From positions 1-26,076 of IMG/VR virus record IMGVR_UViG_3300048032_000472: a stretch of DNA of 26,076 nt. One strand, given 5' to 3'. The stretch comes from a virus. This document shows, piece after piece, positions 15,516 through 26,076 of the stretch; position 1 is the first letter of the stretch, and each line of letters begins with the position of its first letter. The translations under genes and the position numbers were made by a program. A model generated the notes under the pieces. That model was not told the origin of the DNA. It saw only the letters and a program-made list of their open reading frames with translations, and did not search any database.

Positions 15516-15523
15516 TATTTATT
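15516..15523 (-). promoter_or_regulatory. Possible late promoter core AATAAATA before the 212-aa gene
   Basis: AATAAATA overlaps the TAA stop of the 975-aa fibre and lies 18 nt before ATG, so it would leave a leader of about 12 nt. A second A-rich AAAAATA sits nearer the ATG. This site departs from the 5-6-nt spacing of the others. Confidence 0.4.
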
Positions 15524-18449
15524 AGGCGAACCAAGAATTATAAACGGTCCATGTTGAATTTGGGTATGTTCCCGAAACTCCGTATATATAAAGGCGATTT
15601 CGATCTCTATATGAAGTTCCATTACCCCATCTATATGATTCATAATATCTAACTCTAGCCATAACAAAATTTCCGCTTTTAACTGAACTACCAAGTTGAC
15701 CTTTAGCCCAAGTAACCTGACTCGCTGTAGGATTGCCATTTACCGGTGTTCGACCAAGACCATACATATCAATATAGTGCAAAGTAGCTTTTCCAGATGC
15801 ATTAGCTACCTTAGAATCTACATATGCTCTTGTAGCTAATCCACTTACTTTAGAATCAGTATAAGACTTTGCAGCTTGGCCACTAGCGACTACACTGTGT
15901 GATGTAGTCGTTAAATCAGTATCGATTGCAACTAAATTTGGACTACCAGCTGGTTGACTATGACCTCTACCTAAAACAAAACCAGCAGGCACATCGGCAA
16001 GTTTGGCTTCAGTAACTTGACTATCAGCGATCTTCGCTGTTGTAATTGCATTGTTAGCGATTTTACTAGAAGTAACTTGGAGATTAGCAATCTTCGCTGA
16101 TGTAACTGCACTGTTTTTAATCGAGGCAGAAACAACTTGATTGGCTGCAATTCCTGTCATAAGGCTTGCGCCTTTATATGAAATCTCTGAATTCGAGATT
16201 TTTAGAAGATCAATTTTCTCTGCACCGGATGGTTGATGAGTAAATAAGAAATACTCGTTCCGATTATCTCCAGTTTGAAATTCTAAACGGCAATCAGTAT
16301 CTTGATCACCTGTATTATAAAATTTAATAGAAGCGAAATCACTATTTTTACTCCATGTTATACCCTTTCCAGATAGATTAGTAAATGCTAGATCTCCGCC
16401 AACATCTCCTCCAGTCTTAAGAATGTAATTATCATCGGGAAATACTTTTGCAATCTCAGATGTAACATACTCTTTTGTTGTAAGAGATTTCTGATTTGAT
16501 GTAATAAGTGCTTTAGTTTGCAACGGTGCAACAATATGACCAACATTACTAATGTCTATCGCAATACCAGATTGTGAATAAATTTTAGCAGTATCACTCT
16601 TAAGAGATAGATGATTAGACTCAATTATTCCTGAGTCTGTAACAAAACCTCCAGTGGCTTGAATATTTCCAGTATTACCGTGAACGGTTGCTATTGTATT
16701 TACACCTTCTTTAAAATATATATTTTGAGATATACCTTCAGACACACCCAATATAAGATGGTCTCCTTTTTGTATGATCTCATTTGAATCAATTGCAATA
16801 CCCGTTGCAGAACTACCAACCAATAAAGCTGGATTATTAAAATTAGTTCCATCAATCGTTGAAGATCCAGCACCAGTAATATGTACTGGATTAGAAAACG
16901 TTGATTTAGTACTACTAACTTGTAACTTCGTCGATATTCCACTTCCAGGAGAGAGATCAATGCTTCCTCCACTATTATTAATTAAAAGAGCTCCGTTTGC
17001 TCCAGTCTTACGTGTAATACTAGATGAGCCACTTGCACTCGCTAATAGCGATAATGAAACATTTCCGTGTGGAATTGCATTTGATCCAAGAGTAAAAGTT
17101 TGTCCGTTCGCTGTTAGTTTACCAGAAACAACAACGTCTCCAGTTGTATTCCATTGAGGACCAATATTTTCAATCTTAGCGCTCGTAATTGAATCATCAA
17201 GAATCTCAAAAGTTCCAACAGAGTTGTCAGACATATGTCTCAAAGCAATTGCATTATCTTGAATTTTATCACCTGCAATAGGATTGAGAAGAATATTAGC
17301 TGCATCGACATACTCTTTTGTTACGACTGATCTATTACCTCCAGCATTTATTGCTACATCATCTTGATCTGGAACCGTTACTACTCCTCGAATGTTTACA
17401 CCACCAGTATAATCTCTTGCATAATTAACAATTAGTTTATCGCCAACATCATGAACAAGCGCTCTACCGCTATGAACATTTGTTCCAGCTCTAGTAGCAC
17501 TATATAGTTTAAAGTCCGTACCATTTGACGAGATATTACTACCAACTGAAAGAGTCTGAGCAACATTTAACTTGGTTGGAATATCAACTTGAGTGCTATT
17601 CCATTGTGGAGCTCCGCTTGTTAATTTATTATGAGTTAGTGTATTATCTTTAACCTTTGCTCCAGTAATAGTTACATCATCAATCTTATCATTCGATATT
17701 GCCCTATCCGCGATCTTACTTCTTAGTACAGCATTATTACTAATCTTATTAGTAGTAACAGCATTAACACTAATGAGATTTGCAGTAATACCAGAATCTT
17801 TAATATTTAAACGTCTGCTTAAATCAATTTCATTAATTGTAAAGTGTGCAGTATTTACTTGACTTGTTCCGATCTTATCGCTATAATCAATTGTGTCAAA
17901 CTGCTCTTCTATCTTCTTAAATGTATTAAGTTCAGGTTTAACACCATCTAATAAATTTGTAAAATCTGTAGCTACATTTGCAAGAGTTGCAAAATCCGCT
18001 AATACTCCGCTATCATCATCACCAATATAACCTTTAATTTGGGTATCGTATAATGCTTCTCTATAGTCAATATGTTCATCTACAGATTTTGCAGTAGCGA
18101 GTTTACTATCACTAAGATTCGTAGCAATTGTTTGAGTAGAAGTAATATAACCATCTGGATTAATATGACTAAATGCTACATCATTATCTTGAATAGCGTA
18201 TTTGTCGATCGTTATAATATCTGCACTATTGTCTTCTTTCGTATATGTTAATTCGAACTGATTATTACTGTTTGCGGTTAGAGCAAGACCTGTTACCTTC
18301 TCATACCCTTGTCCACTTTGAAATAATTGATCAAGCGCAATTTTATATGTGTGATATGCTCCAGCAGTACTGTCGATTATTGGGAAAAACTCCTCCCCAT
18401 TAATATCACTCTGAAGTCTTTCGTCTAACGCTGAAATTTTAGTACTCAT
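15522..18449 (-). CDS. Modular tail-fibre protein with repeated KI/AKI and KEYVD modules
   Basis: The protein has 975 residues. The N-terminus (MSTKISALDERLQSDINGEE, then a DST...YKIALDQLF stretch) is of the KI-S-x-L...D type that many phage fibres and attachment proteins start with. The middle is built from repeated modules. Chains such as NDKIDDVTITGAKVKDNTL and ITTAKIADSQVTEAKLAD recur three times. Two of them lead into a PQWNxT strand and a '(K)LxxNGxxFxLGSN'-type strand. TKEYVD or RAYVD linkers sit near residues 380, 660 and 875 and look like short trimeric helices. The last ~85 residues are aromatic-rich (RVRYYESYRWGNG, then YPNSTWTVYNSWFA) and are the best candidate for a receptor-binding tip. 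The gene lies between gp7 and gp8, where T4 has nothing. ATG is 6 nt after a perfect TATAAATA. The exact role is inferred. Confidence 0.75.
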   Translation of the reverse strand: MSTKISALDERLQSDINGEEFFPIIDSTAGAYHTYKIALDQLFQSGQGYEKVTGLALTANSNNQFELTYTKEDNSADIITIDKYAIQDNDVAFSHINPDGYITSTQTIATNLSDSKLATAKSVDEHIDYREALYDTQIKGYIGDDDSGVLADFATLANVATDFTNLLDGVKPELNTFKKIEEQFDTIDYSDKIGTSQVNTAHFTINEIDLSRRLNIKDSGITANLISVNAVTTNKISNNAVLRSKIADRAISNDKIDDVTITGAKVKDNTLTHNKLTSGAPQWNSTQVDIPTKLNVAQTLSVGSNISSNGTDFKLYSATRAGTNVHSGRALVHDVGDKLIVNYARDYTGGVNIRGVVTVPDQDDVAINAGGNRSVVTKEYVDAANILLNPIAGDKIQDNAIALRHMSDNSVGTFEILDDSITSAKIENIGPQWNTTGDVVVSGKLTANGQTFTLGSNAIPHGNVSLSLLASASGSSSITRKTGANGALLINNSGGSIDLSPGSGISTKLQVSSTKSTFSNPVHITGAGSSTIDGTNFNNPALLVGSSATGIAIDSNEIIQKGDHLILGVSEGISQNIYFKEGVNTIATVHGNTGNIQATGGFVTDSGIIESNHLSLKSDTAKIYSQSGIAIDISNVGHIVAPLQTKALITSNQKSLTTKEYVTSEIAKVFPDDNYILKTGGDVGGDLAFTNLSGKGITWSKNSDFASIKFYNTGDQDTDCRLEFQTGDNRNEYFLFTHQPSGAEKIDLLKISNSEISYKGASLMTGIAANQVVSASIKNSAVTSAKIANLQVTSSKIANNAITTAKIADSQVTEAKLADVPAGFVLGRGHSQPAGSPNLVAIDTDLTTTSHSVVASGQAAKSYTDSKVSGLATRAYVDSKVANASGKATLHYIDMYGLGRTPVNGNPTASQVTWAKGQLGSSVKSGNFVMARVRYYESYRWGNGTSYRDRNRLYIYGVSGTYPNSTWTVYNSWFA

Positions 18450-18469: not shown

Positions 18470-21400
18470 TTAGTTGTTTACCGTGACTACAGCATCTGTT
18501 TCGTGTGTTTTATCGATAATTGGGCTATCATATTGGCCAACTATAGTATATATTGTTCCATCTCTAAATAATTGATCTAATTTAGGCTCCGATGGAAGAG
18601 CTGCATTTGGAGATACACTTGTATTTATAGCGCCTCTCCATCCAACTAATATAGTATTTCCACCATTTAAAGTGCCAACTACTAATCCTTCGATCGTAAG
18701 ATTATCTCCATTACCATCAATAATATCTTGATATACAACGTTTCCATGAACTAGCTGCGGACCAGTATATGATGTAATATTAAGTTGAACTGGAGCAGAT
18801 AAATCGTTATCATTATTAGGATCATTCCACCATGTACCGTAAAGCTCATCAATAAGTAAACCTGCATCACCTTCATCGAATGGAGAAGAATCGCTTTCAA
18901 GGAATATTCCATCACCGTCTTCAGTATCAAGTTGATTTCTCTTTTTAACGATTGCACTAACATTCATAAAGATCTCTTTATTAACAAGCGCATCCGCAAT
19001 TGTAGTATTCAAATAAGAGCTAATATCTTCAACAGTTTTGAACTTAAGATTCTGTTCAAAGTCATATTTAGTAAACTCCCTTTGTGGTACCAATGAAGGT
19101 ATAACATACTTAAATGTGGTAAGAACTGCTCGCATAAACATCTCTGAATTAATGTCAATACTCGAACGATCTTGCTGTAAATATGCAGCATCTTGTTCAT
19201 CATCACCATAAACGTTTATAGCTTCTTCTTTTCTTTTTAAAGGTTCTGCCGCGATTGTTGCTGTTGTAACTGAATTTTCAGTATAAATCTCTCCGTCTTC
19301 AAAGCCACTACTATCCCCAACCAATTTAATTATTCCAGTAAATTCATTACCATCAGGGCCAATATTTGTTATAACACCTTGACGCGGTGGAGAACCAACA
19401 TCTTGATAGACTACATCTCCTATATTTAACTCAGGACCATTAACAACCAATACTCTAATTTCAAAATCTTCTGCAGGATTTCCATCAGAATAACTATATG
19501 TATATTTTGCAGCAGCCTCATTGCCAGGAACAGAACGAGCGAGCTTTGTCCATAGTCCAGCTTCAAAGATAAATTCGCGAACTCTAATATCTCCTTGTAA
19601 CCAACCTGGTTGGAATACAGGCATATGATAACCACCAGCAGCATTTGGTGCACTAAGAGATTCAAGCCATCTCATATCTTCTAATGGCTGAGTAGTTCTA
19701 AATGGAGAAAGAAATTTATCTTCTACTTTAATTACACTTTCATTCTTTCTTGTTTCGGAATCAAATAATACATACTTTGGACCAAACCAATGATTATCTC
19801 GTATAACAAGAAGAATAACACTTGCAAAGAATTTAAGACCAGCAGGATGAACTAAATTTAAGAATAGTTCTTCCCAATCATCTACGCGAATTCCACTTCG
19901 AATATTGTATGAGAATTTTTGCCAAAAGATACTATCTTGAATACGGTTGATTGATGATGCTCTTCCCTTTTTATCAAAGTATTCTCCAAGATATTCTAAT
20001 GTATACTGATGAATTATAGGCGCATTATCTAATACAGTGTCTAATCTTCCATCACCCCAATATATTTCATTGGATTCAGAAGTTATATCATTGTAATCCG
20101 CTGTTACTCTAATCGCAGTATTATCTTCTCCAATAATTGTCTGTGGTTCATCAAAGAATAAGAATGAATTAAAACTATGACCATCTAAATCAGAAAGTAC
20201 AAAGCGCTCTTTAGCTGTAGCCACAGAGGTAATTTTAGTAGCACCTTTAATATTTCCTTCAAGTTGTTCAAATAATACTCTATAAAACTTCTTAACGTTA
20301 TTCTTTAGATATTCTACAATTTGATCCTTTGAATAATTTGATATAGCACCGGTATAATATTGAGAATGGCTAATATCTCCATTATAGTGTCCATTAATAT
20401 TTTTACCAAGGATTAAGTTTGATTCAGGAGCGAGGATTAAATGCCGAATCGTATTTCCTTCTATTATTCTTTCAAAATCACTGCCATTATATGATATATC
20501 AACATAGCCATTATATCTATCGGCTTTACCTCTTATCATAATTATATTAAACTCATTTAATTCAACTGTTTGAGTTGAATAAACGGCCGAAGAAGGAGGC
20601 GTTGATATAACAAAGTCGCTATTAATTTGATCAACCTGTTTATAATATCCAATAGGATCGCCGTTAATATCTAACGTATGTTTTGTAATAGGTTTTTCTA
20701 CAGCAGTTGAATACATAAAATGCGGATATGAAAATATTGCATTATATGATGGAGCGTTATCTACAATTTTTAAAACTGCGCTATCATTCAATCTTCCTGA
20801 ATATGAAGTTACTGGTAAGAAACCTTCAGTTGGTCGAATAAATGGCAGTGAGCGAATGAAGTTATCTGATAATTTTCTCCAAATATCGTATTTAACTGTA
20901 GTACTATTTTGAGCTGAAAATAATTCTGAATTTGGTCCATTTAATATTCTATTAACACTATTTGGTTCAAGCGATATCGCGAACATATCATTATCATTAT
21001 CAATTACGATATCTACTCCGTAATTTAAGCCAACTTTAAAATCTTCTGAATTAAGTTGTTCAAATTCTATTGATGGAGTAAATATTCTATCTACTTTCCA
21101 CGTATTATGCGAAGTTTCAAATTGACTCTTAATATAATATAATATAGAAGGAGCATTATGTTCTTTTTTATTATAAACCGAATCAGAATACGAATATTGT
21201 TCTACAAATTGCTGAGCATTATTTAATCCACCATTCACCAATAATAGATCATCACCAAGGAATTTGTACGAATACAACCTTGATCCATTATGAGTAATAT
21301 AGTTTACCGTACCATTTGTTACAGAAGTAAATGGATTATAGTAATTTTTCCATTCGTTTTCTGACAACTTTTCCCAAATATTAATTCCGTATGAGCTAGT

Positions 21401-24400
21401 CTTAATTATAATCGTTCCAGTTTCGCTTACTTCAAATCTTCCTCCATCGAGTAAAGAATTAATTCCAGTCGTTATTGTTCGAGTATAATCGCTTGACAAT
21501 GTTCTTTCAATTCTTTCAAATTCGATATGAGTAAGATCTTTATCATAAAAAGAAATGTGCGAAAATGCTATATTTCTATAAAGATAAAACTCCGAAGTTG
21601 AACTAATACCATGAACTGGACTCCTTTGATCTACATCATTATCATCAATTAATATATCTACTGATTTTGATCTTTTAAATCCATTAAGAGAATAACGTAA
21701 ACCAGTAATTACCCTTTCTGGATTAACATTGTTTAACTCTCCAATTGTAAATTCAATTACAAGATTATTCCACTCATTAATTTTTATTTCATCGTCGAAA
21801 TATTCGTCACTAAATAATTCTCGAGGATTATTATCAATAATAACATTAGAGTCTATCTTATCTAAAAATACAGGATAGTCAACCTTTCCAGATTCTTGTG
21901 AAACAACTTGAAGAGTCCTCTTATTTGTTAATGGATTATTTAAAATACGTAGAGTTACATTACCTATTTTTAGTATATTGGTAACATTATTAAATAAATC
22001 TTTTGCATTAAAACGAACAGCTAAACTAAATTTAGAATCGATATCAAATCCAAGACCATTACCCGATGTATTAGTAATACTATCAAAAATAACGCCTCTA
22101 TCTACAGACAGCGTATCAACTAAGTTGGGTGAAGTAATTGTAACAGACTTATCTGTTGATTTCCATTCCCCTGTAGCCAATTCTTTATTAAGATTAAATT
22201 CTAAATTAGGTATAACAGATGGAGTATTTACAATAGGTAAACTTGTATACTGATTGTTTGACCAATAACCATCATTGCCTATATTATATACATGAATAAC
22301 TTGAGCAATATCAATATTATTTAATGTATGTGTTCCAACTACTATTTGAGAGTTGTTAAATTTAATATGTGCAAAATCAGCAGCACCTACATGTGTAGCT
22401 GGAAGATTTAATTCTACAGTTTGGTAATATTCATAACGATAATATTCATTTTGCTTAAAGATGACAAGTCGAGATGCATTATTAACTGGCTTATCTAAAA
22501 GAATAAGATGCGTATCATCAACAGCATAATCTAAAATATCCCACAATCTTTCTCCATTGTATTCAGTAGTGTCGCCAATAGTAATATCTTGCCACGGTAT
22601 ATATCCACCATTATGTTTATAAAATATAGACATATAACCTCTATTATGTAGAGTAAAAATATGATCATCGTCCTTTTTAATATTATCGCAGTGCGGTAAA
22701 ATAGGAAGACTTAGATCACCTTGTCTACTTCCGCTATTCCATACTACTCCTATATCGTAAGGATTAACAACGGAAATATCATCAACCCAATCTGTATAAT
22801 ATATTACTTTATTAAAAGATTTAATTGCCCATCTATAAGTTGAATCAGATGGATTTTTTTCTGCAAGTAAAAATGAATTTATATTAACATCAATAGCAAC
22901 TTGGTATACCTTTACTTGACCTTTATCTGTACCGAGTTGATCATTTCCAGGAGCACCAACAGCAACGCGTGTACCAGTGCCATTTAAACTAACACTCGAA
23001 CCAACATTTTCTGTATTACTATATCCGTTAATATCGTTACCAACTCTTTTCCAAGTATTATTTGCATAATAATATACTCTTACTTGACCAGTGTCATTGC
23101 CATTTTCATCATTCTTTGGTTCACCAATTGCAATAATATCACCATTGGTATTAAGAGAAACACTTGATCCGCTTGCTCCAGCAACCTGTTCACCTAAGAT
23201 TGTTTGTCCTAGTTTAACCCAAGTATTTGTATTATCTAACCTATAAATCTCAGTCTCTCCTCTGAAAGATGTATTAGTTCCATCTCCAAGAATTCCAATA
23301 GCAACTGTTTTACCATCATTGCTCAAACTTATTGGGATAATAGACTTATCATCAGAAGCCGTAAATGTCAAATCTCTACCAACTTGAATCCACGTAGTAG
23401 TGTTTTCTTTATTGTAATATGCTCTTACACACATTACAATATTTCCAAAGTCATTTACCTTATGTGTTCCAACAACTAATGTACGACCATCATCACTCAA
23501 TCTAACAGTATTTCCGCTTAAAGGATCATTGTTTATTTCAGAAATGTTACTTCCAACCTGTGACCAACTTGATCCGCTCCACTCATAAACAGCAGTTTCA
23601 TTCGATTGTCTATCAGGTCTTCTAAATCCAACAATCTTTCCACCGTCTTCTAATAATATTCCTCCACCAGATTGTAAACCAAGATCAAAGTCTTTATTTG
23701 GAAATGCTCCTGAGCCAAAGGCTACACGATCACCTACTCCATTTAAACTAACACTCGTTCCTAATTTACTATCATCATTTGATCCAATAAATGATGTACC
23801 TCTTTGTACCCAATTAGATCCAATTAATTCATAGATTTTTACTTCTCCAATTAAACTATCACCTGATTTATTTTGCGGAGCACCAATCGCTAAAACTGTA
23901 CCGTCAGCGTTTAAGCTAATATCACTTCCTAATAAATCTCCTGCACTATCACCATCAATATCGTTACCAATTTGTACCCAAACTTCTGGAGAACCTGTTA
24001 ATTGATAGACTCTTACGTGACCAGAGTTATTACCATTTCCATCATTTTTCGATGCGCCGATTGCAAGTGTTAAACCATCTTCGCTTAGTGCTGTTACTCC
24101 GCTTAAGTCACCAGTACCTTCACCGTATATTGTTTGACCAATTTCAAGATTGTTCGGACCATCAAATGATTCACCATCAGATTCATAAAATCTTAAATCA
24201 TCTTGTGTAAATGTCTTTAAAGTTGGATCATCGGAATGAATATAAACAAATTGTTCATTAAACTCAATAAGCGTTTTTTGCCATTTGCCATTAATCGGTT
24301 CATCAAATGGGGACAAAAACGATTTCATATAATCGTATCTATCACCTATTAGTGTATTTAAACCAACAGTTGTTTTATCAATAAAATTATAAAAATCATA

Positions 24401-25423
24401 TGATTCACCATCAGAATTAAGTTCAATTCTCGGTTGATTTGTATCAATGAATGATCTACCGATTTTTTGTGTAGTTTTATTAAAGAATAGCTCGTGTGAA
24501 TGAAGCTGTTGGTAATTATTTGATAAAGAAAATAATGGTTGGATCTCGCTATTTTCTCTATCAAATCTTGGTAAAGTACGAATAACAAATGAGTGTTCAT
24601 TAGTATCGATAGAAATATCTTTATTATCCCCAATATTTCCAAATTCGATAAAGGCACTTTTTCCATCAACCTTTACCAATTCTTCAAATTCATTGAATGC
24701 CGCACCATCATGAAAATAGCCTCGCACTACATTATCTAATATAGTTGAATCCCAAGTTTCATTAATTGGATTTAGGTCTTTCTTTGAATTAAGATCAAAA
24801 ACTAAAGATTGAATATTGGGTACTGTGTCATAAAGAACTACTTCTTCAGCATTAACAATTACACCTGTTCCTAATATTTGATCTAGATCATTTTTTACGT
24901 TGAATGGTGTATAATTATATTCTACATCTAAATCTTCAAATTCTATAGATGCGCTAATACTACGTGTAAATGTATTATTCGTTGGTTTCCAATCTCCTGA
25001 AGAAAGCTCAAACAGTTTCTCCTTTGGATAAGATACTTCTATAATTTCATCAAAGAACAAACGGAAAAACGTTGTAATACTTTCTTCCGACCCCTTTAGC
25101 GCGTAATATTGGATAATCTTTTTGTACAATGATATTCTATCCATCACTGAAGAATCTGGAATATTTTTGGCAATTTCTCCTTGAATACCGTCTAAATATT
25201 TAATAGACACTTTATCGATATCATGCTCATCAATAATTCTATTCGTCTCATATGTAGGAAGACCTTCTGTATTGAGATAATCATAATACTCCTTTATTAA
25301 ATTAATAAAGGTTTCTGAACTTTGTCTTAGTTGTCCAGGAATGAGTTCTTCAACGCGAAGAGATTCAGTATTATGCGGTACAGTAGCTTGTGGAGCAGCG
25401 GATGCTATAGAAATATGAGACAT
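18470..25423 (-). CDS. 7: Giant gp7-like baseplate wedge initiator with inserted beta-propeller and LamG-like region
   Basis: The protein has 2317 residues; T4 gp7 has about 1030. Residues ~1-140 hold the conserved marine gp7 start: a short Ser/Ala-rich leader, then LIKEYYDYLNTEGLP, a YLDGIQGEIAKNIPDS helix and a YYALKGSEESITTFFRLFFDE segment. Residues 428-843 are seven repeats of about 59 residues with the pattern GxSVSLNxDGxxxAIGAPxND...GxVRVY...W, which fits a seven-bladed FG-GAP-like propeller. Residues ~1070-1315 resemble a LamG/concanavalin-like sandwich. The gp7-type C-terminal region resumes at about 1710 and includes SIFWQKFSYNIR, LVHPAGLKFFASV and WFGPKYVLFDSE. In T4, gp7 starts wedge assembly and binds gp10, gp8 and gp6. 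The gene follows gp6 by 3 nt. Its start has no Shine-Dalgarno sequence; the sequence before ATG is A-rich. The inserts probably face outward and may bind glycans or host surface; that is inference. Confidence 0.85.
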   Translation of the reverse strand: MSHISIASAAPQATVPHNTESLRVEELIPGQLRQSSETFINLIKEYYDYLNTEGLPTYETNRIIDEHDIDKVSIKYLDGIQGEIAKNIPDSSVMDRISLYKKIIQYYALKGSEESITTFFRLFFDEIIEVSYPKEKLFELSSGDWKPTNNTFTRSISASIEFEDLDVEYNYTPFNVKNDLDQILGTGVIVNAEEVVLYDTVPNIQSLVFDLNSKKDLNPINETWDSTILDNVVRGYFHDGAAFNEFEELVKVDGKSAFIEFGNIGDNKDISIDTNEHSFVIRTLPRFDRENSEIQPLFSLSNNYQQLHSHELFFNKTTQKIGRSFIDTNQPRIELNSDGESYDFYNFIDKTTVGLNTLIGDRYDYMKSFLSPFDEPINGKWQKTLIEFNEQFVYIHSDDPTLKTFTQDDLRFYESDGESFDGPNNLEIGQTIYGEGTGDLSGVTALSEDGLTLAIGASKNDGNGNNSGHVRVYQLTGSPEVWVQIGNDIDGDSAGDLLGSDISLNADGTVLAIGAPQNKSGDSLIGEVKIYELIGSNWVQRGTSFIGSNDDSKLGTSVSLNGVGDRVAFGSGAFPNKDFDLGLQSGGGILLEDGGKIVGFRRPDRQSNETAVYEWSGSSWSQVGSNISEINNDPLSGNTVRLSDDGRTLVVGTHKVNDFGNIVMCVRAYYNKENTTTWIQVGRDLTFTASDDKSIIPISLSNDGKTVAIGILGDGTNTSFRGETEIYRLDNTNTWVKLGQTILGEQVAGASGSSVSLNTNGDIIAIGEPKNDENGNDTGQVRVYYYANNTWKRVGNDINGYSNTENVGSSVSLNGTGTRVAVGAPGNDQLGTDKGQVKVYQVAIDVNINSFLLAEKNPSDSTYRWAIKSFNKVIYYTDWVDDISVVNPYDIGVVWNSGSRQGDLSLPILPHCDNIKKDDDHIFTLHNRGYMSIFYKHNGGYIPWQDITIGDTTEYNGERLWDILDYAVDDTHLILLDKPVNNASRLVIFKQNEYYRYEYYQTVELNLPATHVGAADFAHIKFNNSQIVVGTHTLNNIDIAQVIHVYNIGNDGYWSNNQYTSLPIVNTPSVIPNLEFNLNKELATGEWKSTDKSVTITSPNLVDTLSVDRGVIFDSITNTSGNGLGFDIDSKFSLAVRFNAKDLFNNVTNILKIGNVTLRILNNPLTNKRTLQVVSQESGKVDYPVFLDKIDSNVIIDNNPRELFSDEYFDDEIKINEWNNLVIEFTIGELNNVNPERVITGLRYSLNGFKRSKSVDILIDDNDVDQRSPVHGISSTSEFYLYRNIAFSHISFYDKDLTHIEFERIERTLSSDYTRTITTGINSLLDGGRFEVSETGTIIIKTSSYGINIWEKLSENEWKNYYNPFTSVTNGTVNYITHNGSRLYSYKFLGDDLLLVNGGLNNAQQFVEQYSYSDSVYNKKEHNAPSILYYIKSQFETSHNTWKVDRIFTPSIEFEQLNSEDFKVGLNYGVDIVIDNDNDMFAISLEPNSVNRILNGPNSELFSAQNSTTVKYDIWRKLSDNFIRSLPFIRPTEGFLPVTSYSGRLNDSAVLKIVDNAPSYNAIFSYPHFMYSTAVEKPITKHTLDINGDPIGYYKQVDQINSDFVISTPPSSAVYSTQTVELNEFNIIMIRGKADRYNGYVDISYNGSDFERIIEGNTIRHLILAPESNLILGKNINGHYNGDISHSQYYTGAISNYSKDQIVEYLKNNVKKFYRVLFEQLEGNIKGATKITSVATAKERFVLSDLDGHSFNSFLFFDEPQTIIGEDNTAIRVTADYNDITSESNEIYWGDGRLDTVLDNAPIIHQYTLEYLGEYFDKKGRASSINRIQDSIFWQKFSYNIRSGIRVDDWEELFLNLVHPAGLKFFASVILLVIRDNHWFGPKYVLFDSETRKNESVIKVEDKFLSPFRTTQPLEDMRWLESLSAPNAAGGYHMPVFQPGWLQGDIRVREFIFEAGLWTKLARSVPGNEAAAKYTYSYSDGNPAEDFEIRVLVVNGPELNIGDVVYQDVGSPPRQGVITNIGPDGNEFTGIIKLVGDSSGFEDGEIYTENSVTTATIAAEPLKRKEEAINVYGDDEQDAAYLQQDRSSIDINSEMFMRAVLTTFKYVIPSLVPQREFTKYDFEQNLKFKTVEDISSYLNTTIADALVNKEIFMNVSAIVKKRNQLDTEDGDGIFLESDSSPFDEGDAGLLIDELYGTWWNDPNNDNDLSAPVQLNITSYTGPQLVHGNVVYQDIIDGNGDNLTIEGLVVGTLNGGNTILVGWRGAINTSVSPNAALPSEPKLDQLFRDGTIYTIVGQYDSPIIDKTHETDAVVTVNN
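22895..24142 (-). repeat. Seven tandem ~59-residue FG-GAP-like propeller repeats inside gp7
   Basis: These are codons 428-843 of the gp7-like gene. Seven units can be laid out by eye. Each starts with (I/V/L/R)G-x-x-I, continues with a GSSVSLNxDG-type strand, AIGAPxND, then GxVRVY, and ends with WxQ or WxR. Unit 3 carries an extra ~25 residues rich in Gly, and units 4 and 5 are the most divergent. Units 1, 2, 6 and 7 keep the NDGNGNNSGHVRVY-type loop best. The same repeat style is common in surface proteins of marine bacteria and some protists. Seven units match the blade number of a closed propeller of the integrin-alpha type. Confidence 0.8.
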
Positions 25424-25426
25424 ATT

Positions 25427-26076
25427 TTATGTATTATCAGGTCTGTGTCTTAAAAATGGTGTATATTCGTTAACTCCAGATGAACCAGATACTGCTATTG
25501 TGTCAACTTCTGGTGTAATCTGAGTTCTTCCAATATCAATTGTAAGAAGCTTATTTCTTTTTGACACAATATCATTCGATGCTGGAGAAACATATATATT
25601 TATAGTCTCGGTTTTATTAAGTGGGATATTATCAATAGATACTGCTCCAGTATTAGTATTAATAGTTCCTACATTGTTAAATAATATTCGTTTAATTCCA
25701 TCTGCTCCAATAGAATATGCATATATTCTTCTCTCAAAATCAGAATCAACTATTGGTGTGTCTTCCAATTGAAGAGTTACTCCATTATAAAGCCAAGAAT
25801 CTGAATATAATACTGGTTCTTTTTGAGAAGAATCTGCATATATTTCCATTTGGAAATCAATTGGTGTTGATGTAAGTTTACCGTATTCGAATACTCCTGT
25901 TTTATATACAAAAACTCTAACAAATGAATTAATAATTGCGATATCTAAATTGTCAATTTGAGTAAGTAGATGTGAATAACGAAATACTCCATCAAACCTT
26001 TGTAAATTATTTAAATTAAAATCTTCTAATAGAGATTCTATTCTCGAAGAAAGTTGACCAGATGACAACGATGTTC
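25427..26076 (-). CDS. 6: Baseplate wedge subunit gp6, C-terminal part (partial)
   Basis: This is the C-terminal ~215 residues of a protein whose start lies beyond the window. The frame is open to the edge, and the first possible start inside the window (TTG at 26068) is only an internal codon. In T4, gp6 forms the ring-closing core of the baseplate wedge around the tail tube. The visible part has features I associate with gp6 of marine T4-like phages: an FRYSHLLTQID-like stretch that leads into a beta-rich region, and near the end SNDIVSKRNKLLTID, close to the SND-x(3)-KRN-x-[IL]LTID motif of cyanophage gp6. A gp7-like gene follows after only 3 nt, which is the T4 order 6-7. It is identified by motif memory plus gene order, not by alignment. 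Confidence 0.82.
   Translation of the reverse strand, partial: TSLSSGQLSSRIESLLEDFNLNNLQRFDGVFRYSHLLTQIDNLDIAIINSFVRVFVYKTGVFEYGKLTSTPIDFQMEIYADSSQKEPVLYSDSWLYNGVTLQLEDTPIVDSDFERRIYAYSIGADGIKRILFNNVGTINTNTGAVSIDNIPLNKTETINIYVSPASNDIVSKRNKLLTIDIGRTQITPEVDTIAVSGSSGVNEYTPFLRHRPDNT

Follow-up and report, generated by a model that had tools for sequence, protein, structure and literature searches.

The gp7 locus

The DNA analysed here, called the window below, is a single stretch of 26,076 nucleotides, positions 1 to 26,076 of the IMG/VR virus record IMGVR_UViG_3300048032_000472. On its minus strand, one uninterrupted reading frame (18470..25423) encodes a protein of 2,317 aa, preceded by the C-terminal part of the baseplate wedge protein gp6 (25427..26074, minus strand; phrog_219, E 1.8e-19, with a weak Gp6_C-III match), which is truncated by the window end. 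The gene order is that of Kyanoviridae and of the cultured kin, with gp6 upstream, followed by gp7, fibre-like genes, gp8, and VrlC. Judged by the VrlC-type protein, the nearest cultured kin infect SAR11, OM43, and cyanobacteria. The interval between gp7 and gp8 holds extra fibre-like genes in the window phage, as it does in S-ShM2. A 975-aa fibre-like protein is encoded immediately after gp7 (15522-18449); its N-terminal part is matched at 44-81% in relatives, and its C-terminal part is diverged or rearranged.

The conserved core of the 2,317-aa protein lies in two halves. The N-terminal half (residues 19-147; 24983..25369, minus strand) includes a helix with a KGS/KGT motif, matches phrog_17744 (E 1.6e-19), and is conserved in compact gp7 proteins and in those of cyanophages. 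The C-terminal half (residues 1811-1997; 19433..19993, minus strand) carries an LVHPAG motif and matches phrog_26741. When profiles of the conserved core were compared with all PDB sequences, the top match was T4-type gp7 (E 0.0039), in two collinear pieces; further core profiles also ranked it first (E 0.00039 and 0.0014), the first non-gp7 protein following at 0.029. Profile alignment with hhalign gave E values of 1.1e-5 and 2.8e-5 over about 30 columns, with probabilities of 74-82%, and a tblastn search with a compact gp7 matched a T4-like 'baseplate wedge initiator' directly (E 4e-4). The homology is short, yet collinear at two motifs. Because of its place between gp6 and gp8 and the ranking of T4-type gp7 by the core profiles, the gene is assigned to gp7, a wedge protein of the T4-type contractile-tail baseplate. 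The full protein gave no phmmer match in the PDB and no NCBIfam family, and the whole-window DNA had no match among named phages.

According to one study, pelagimyophages and cyanomyophages have no gp7, VrlC taking its place (PMC7029224). The core matches to T4-type gp7 argue against this absence, and would identify the gp7 of both pelagimyophages and cyanophages. In S-ShM2, the core is borne by SShM2_093 (L118:6319-24915), a protein of 6,198 aa annotated as 'virion structural protein' that adjoins gp6, and the core profiles have no match in its neighbor SShM2_094 (L118:24940-26661), the gene annotated as gp7. This suggests that the giant 'structural protein' genes found in cyanophages are gp7 genes with very large inserts. 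HTVC008M gp055 (L114:11436-14486), annotated as 'head closure Hc2', also matches the core and sits between gp6 and gp8.

An independent contig (L004) holds a full-length copy of the window gene that is 99.96% identical, and more distant copies, about 57-84% identical, retain all seven units of the propeller described below. In L008, L009, L023, L026, and L029, gp7 starts with an N-terminal extension of about 100-160 residues that is absent from the window protein. In L006, the frame is broken near residue 1410 and the homology continues downstream, which could reflect a sequencing error or a real mutation.

An insertion slot between the core halves

In short marine gp7 proteins (contigs L038-L063; 369-703 aa when complete), the core halves, equivalent to residues ~19-147 and 1811-1880 of the window protein, are only 2-9 residues apart; in some of these proteins, the core is also interrupted closer to its N terminus, by another insert about 100 aa long. 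Since compact relatives join residue 147 to residue 1811, the insert of the window protein spans residues 148-1810 (about 1,664 aa; 19994..24982, minus strand). The length of this slot is 373 residues in Melnitz, 506 in HTVC008M, 1,664 in the window, 1,781 in S-CAM3, and about 2,700 in S-ShM2. A YHYH domain is found in the gp7 of S-CAM3, and a YHYH and two LamG domains in that of S-ShM2, where the YHYH and one LamG domain lie inside the slot. Judged from these sequence comparisons, the site is a slot widely used in this gp7 family.

The propeller is flanked within the slot by two beta-rich regions. The one before it (residues 148-425; 24149..24982, minus strand) occurs in every near relative, L019 among them, and is modeled with low confidence. 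The one after it (residues 844-1810; 19994..22894, minus strand) is conserved in relatives at 35-82% identity. A second structure model, too uncertain to give the rest of the insert an identity, has a mean pLDDT of 49.6, and its Foldseek matches to the propeller-plus-lectin folds of sialidases and GH43 enzymes are weak and local (TM 0.23 or less). By eye, residues 148-425 and 1076-1800 could be taken as lectin-like, a reading for which Pfam gave no support in the window.

Seven FG-GAP_2 units with a predicted propeller fold

Residues 426-843 (22895..24148, minus strand) comprise seven FG-GAP_2 units predicted to fold into a propeller, as judged by Pfam, a unit HMM, AlphaFold2, and Foldseek. 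The units are 52-82 residues long and correspond, all on the minus strand, to blade 1 (residues 426-482; 23978..24148), blade 2 (483-538; 23810..23977), blade 3 (539-620; 23564..23809), which has a longer loop, blade 4 (621-678; 23390..23563), blade 5 (679-735; 23219..23389), blade 6 (736-791; 23051..23218), and blade 7 (792-843; 22895..23050). The Pfam family FG-GAP_2 (PF14312) is matched with E 2.8e-7 and 31 bits, above its cut-off of 23. An HMM built from bacterial (Bacteroidota) units alone recovers the identical seven units at 15-60 bits, compared with 2.6 bits for the highest-scoring of 200 shuffled versions of the window protein. The integrin-type family PF01839 has no match in the protein at E<=1, and calcium-loop motifs of the canonical integrin type are not evident by eye. 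Seven units are found in every full-length relative that bears the propeller.

The AlphaFold2 model of residues 140-1085 has a mean pLDDT of 64.2, with 10-residue blocks of the propeller mostly at 64-94 and poor confidence in the loop of blade 3 (residues 574-606), and shows about four strands per unit. In the PDB, Foldseek matched this model to the WD40 ring of CIAO1 (6tbl_E; target-normalised TM 0.73, rmsd 5.0) and also to the integrin alpha-M and alpha-X headpieces; among viral models, the best match was an FG-GAP protein of Megaviridae. A propeller sequence profile had no match among PDB sequences. The fold matches suggest that residues 426-843 close into a seven-bladed ring.

The preliminary description had placed seven FG-GAP-like units at this site and had proposed a propeller fold for them; the units are indeed there, as FG-GAP_2 repeats, and the predicted model agrees with closed seven-bladed rings. 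Its further claim that the propeller interrupts gp7 stands in part. Core profiles and synteny support the gp7 identity, but the split is not caused by the propeller alone: the 1,664 residues of the full insert (148-1810, where that description gave 428-843) separate core halves that are adjacent in short gp7 proteins, so the propeller is one module of a much larger insert.

Distribution, cassette exchange, and cellular relatives

The propeller is missing from some sister gp7 proteins. L019, L020, and L021, which share about 80% identity with the window in their first 160 residues, can be aligned to it over residues 1-404 or 1-409 and again from residue 861 onwards, so that the site is cleanly empty; gp6 is likewise retained upstream in L019 and L021. 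The tree of the core is poorly resolved as to loss or primary absence in L019 and L021, and trees of neighboring stretches do not distinguish these either. In the complete protein of L019, about 700 extra residues are found near the C terminus instead (residues 1562-2263), with matches to F5/8 type C (E 2.6e-27) and one to FG-GAP_2. By eye, this region may be a propeller nested in a split F5/8C domain. Because sister phages lack the propeller at this place or carry other modules of sugar-binding type, gp7 looks like a slot for exchangeable surface-binding domains.

A second level of exchange is seen inside blade 3. At a junction after residue 592, in what is a loop in the window protein (residues 574-608; 23600..23704, minus strand), L008, L009, L023, L026, and L029 carry a cassette of about 183-209 residues. 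The cassettes of L009 and L029 are 91% identical, with 49-56% identity in blades 2-7 and 72% in blade 1; those of L008 and L023 are 89% identical, with 53-58% in blades 2-7 and 76% in blade 1. Flanks mostly share 47-58% identity where the cassettes share 89-91%. Conversely, the close pair L026 and L029 has cassettes only 35% identical, against 78-91% in the blades. These identities indicate a discrete cassette that is recombined between phages, as would be expected if it served in surface recognition and were under pressure to switch its binding partner. The cassette had no match in named phages. Another propeller insert, of about 90 residues, is located between blades 1 and 2 in L009, L023, L026, and L029.

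The propeller is under purifying selection, yet evolves faster than the N-terminal core, with dN/dS values of 0.15-0.21 compared with 0.04-0.05 (window-L005 and window-L006). Among the window, L005, and L015, blades correspond one to one in strict order, which makes a single ancestral propeller in these phages likely.

Outside phages, the best relatives found in one scan of a genome collection are seven-unit proteins of Flavobacteriaceae, with up to 34-35% identity and E values down to 2e-56, which by eye have a signal peptide and a type IX sorting domain. Only one of 50,697 phage records matched the window propeller, and two matched a flavobacterial one. A test for in-register blade similarity between the window and the flavobacterial proteins gave no signal and no common register. 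No particular bacterial protein is therefore proposed as the donor. For the same reason, the capture from a cellular adhesin suggested in the preliminary description is unsupported. Its expectation that the nearest relatives would lie outside phages is supported, as the nearest cellular ones found are secreted-looking marine bacterial proteins and almost nothing similar occurs among the 50,697 phage records. The empty site in L019, L020, and L021 answers the question, also put there, whether sister phages have a gp7 without the propeller; the insert is not universal in gp7 of this group.

Proposed role and alternatives

The reading favored here, with a probability of roughly 0.6, is that the gp7 slot and its propeller constitute a built-in adhesion module. 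In this mechanism, gp7 would act in the wedge as the partner of the gp6 dimer, and one site in its core would serve as a tolerant display slot, filled in the window phage by beta-rich modules strung together over 1,664 residues, the seven-bladed FG-GAP_2 propeller among them. With one gp7 per wedge and six wedges, by analogy with T4, the baseplate would carry six propellers, presumably facing outward and exposed on its rim. Either before the baseplate is triggered or during that step, the propeller and its neighbors would touch material of the host surface, probably glycans or glycoproteins, and in this way contribute to adsorption; the loop of blade 3 could be a main variable contact point. 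For the host contact that the preliminary description had also suggested, the best indirect evidence is the swapping of cassettes in this loop, along with the presence or absence of the propeller among relatives. XM1 gp17, whose loops hold the tail spikes (PMC10457771), is a precedent for host-contact parts borne on gp7 loops, and T7 gp12 (PMC6702177) is one for a seven-bladed propeller with a blade-3 loop that leads to the nozzle tip. Modules of surface-binding type (YHYH, LamG, and F5/8C) are found in the gp7 of relatives. Against an adhesion module counts the fact that fibre-like genes follow gp7, and therefore an extra adhesin is not required. A purely structural second layer of the baseplate, moreover, would show similar conservation, and the confidence of the structure model is moderate.

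The main rival is that the propeller is a structural platform on which another virion protein docks, for example the 975-aa fibre-like protein, with no contact to the host. Precedents exist for such a part: loops of XM1 gp17, a gp7 homologue, hold tail spikes (PMC10457771), and the seven-bladed propeller of T7 gp12 serves in assembly, sealing the DNA channel and contacting neighboring subunits (PMC6702177). A fibre-like gene, furthermore, follows gp7 in every relative whose locus extends far enough. One of these is L019, however, which keeps the fibre-like gene with no propeller at the site, implying that this gene does not need the propeller there. The swapped blade-3 cassettes are also more in keeping with surface recognition than with a conserved interface, and docking, even if it has to be taken seriously, is considered unlikely.

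An enzymatic or glycan-processing role, by which the propeller and its neighbors would help the phage through surface polysaccharide in the manner of the sialidase or GH43 propeller-plus-lectin enzymes, is suggested by the Foldseek matches of the second model. These matches reach the low TM values given above in a model of low confidence, Pfam detects no enzyme family, and FG-GAP_2 units are not known to have a catalytic site, making this role very improbable. Still harder to credit is an assembly chimera or a non-functional insertion whose frame was kept by chance. The contig is metagenomic, and the related copy in L006 has a broken frame; but the near-identical copy in L004 is independent, the diverged copies in L005, L008, L009, L015, L023, L026, and L029 are intact and have the same seven blades, and selection on the propeller is purifying.

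The adhesion module may be part of a wider arrangement, proposed here tentatively and with somewhat less than even confidence. The site between the core halves would be a general display slot of marine T4-type phages, carrying a receptor-binding array in cis built of nested swappable modules (propeller, LamG, F5/8C, and YHYH), with swappable cassettes within a blade, and host specificity would reside partly in the baseplate core and not in the fibres alone. If the adhesion reading is true, a structural subunit that is essential to an abundant type of marine phage doubles as its adhesin, and domain shuffling is tolerated inside a core wedge protein. The identification of gp7 also makes host recognition by the baseplate testable in cultured phages, among them S-ShM2, HTVC008M, and Melnitz.

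Comparison with known systems

Large inserts in gp7 are recurrent in this family, and what is new here is an FG-GAP_2 propeller in a baseplate wedge protein, the first found. No paper joining FG-GAP, baseplate, and phage was encountered in the literature searched, and FG-GAP domains in any virus were described in 2024 as nearly unprecedented (PMC11467894). The FG-GAP proteins of algal and giant viruses share with the window protein an FG-GAP propeller in a viral protein (PMC11467894), but belong to eukaryotic viruses and are not baseplate subunits. The integrin alpha headpiece is similar in its seven-bladed propeller fold of FG-GAP type, as seen with Foldseek, and differs in its PF01839 repeats and canonical calcium loops.

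The FG-GAP_2 proteins of Flavobacteriaceae (L086-L089 and L092) have seven units of the same type, with 25-35% identity over the propeller. Unlike the window propeller, they are stand-alone proteins, with their apparent (by eye) signal peptide and type IX sorting domain, and their blades are mostly more uniform and in no shared register. The nozzle propeller of T7 gp12 offers a likeness by its described structure: it has seven blades in a phage tail protein, and an extra domain arises from blade 3, whose loop leads to the nozzle tip (PMC6702177). It lies, however, in the channel nozzle of a podophage, with a role in holding DNA, and not in a wedge.

The closest parallels are other gp7 proteins. 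In that of T4, the core motifs follow each other in the same order (at T4-type residues ~733-765 and 844-897) and the gene order gp6-gp7-gp8 is the same, but the motifs are separated by only about 80 residues, FG-GAP units are absent, and the N terminus is longer by about 650-700 residues. The giant homologues of Kyanoviridae (the 6,198-aa SShM2_093, the 3,045-aa S-CAM3 gp173, HTVC008M gp055, and Melnitz 161) are annotated as structural protein, head closure, or hypothetical. Although none of the four proteins scanned matches FG-GAP_2, they share with the window protein the same core and a large insert at the same site, which in some of them also holds modules of surface-binding type such as YHYH and LamG.
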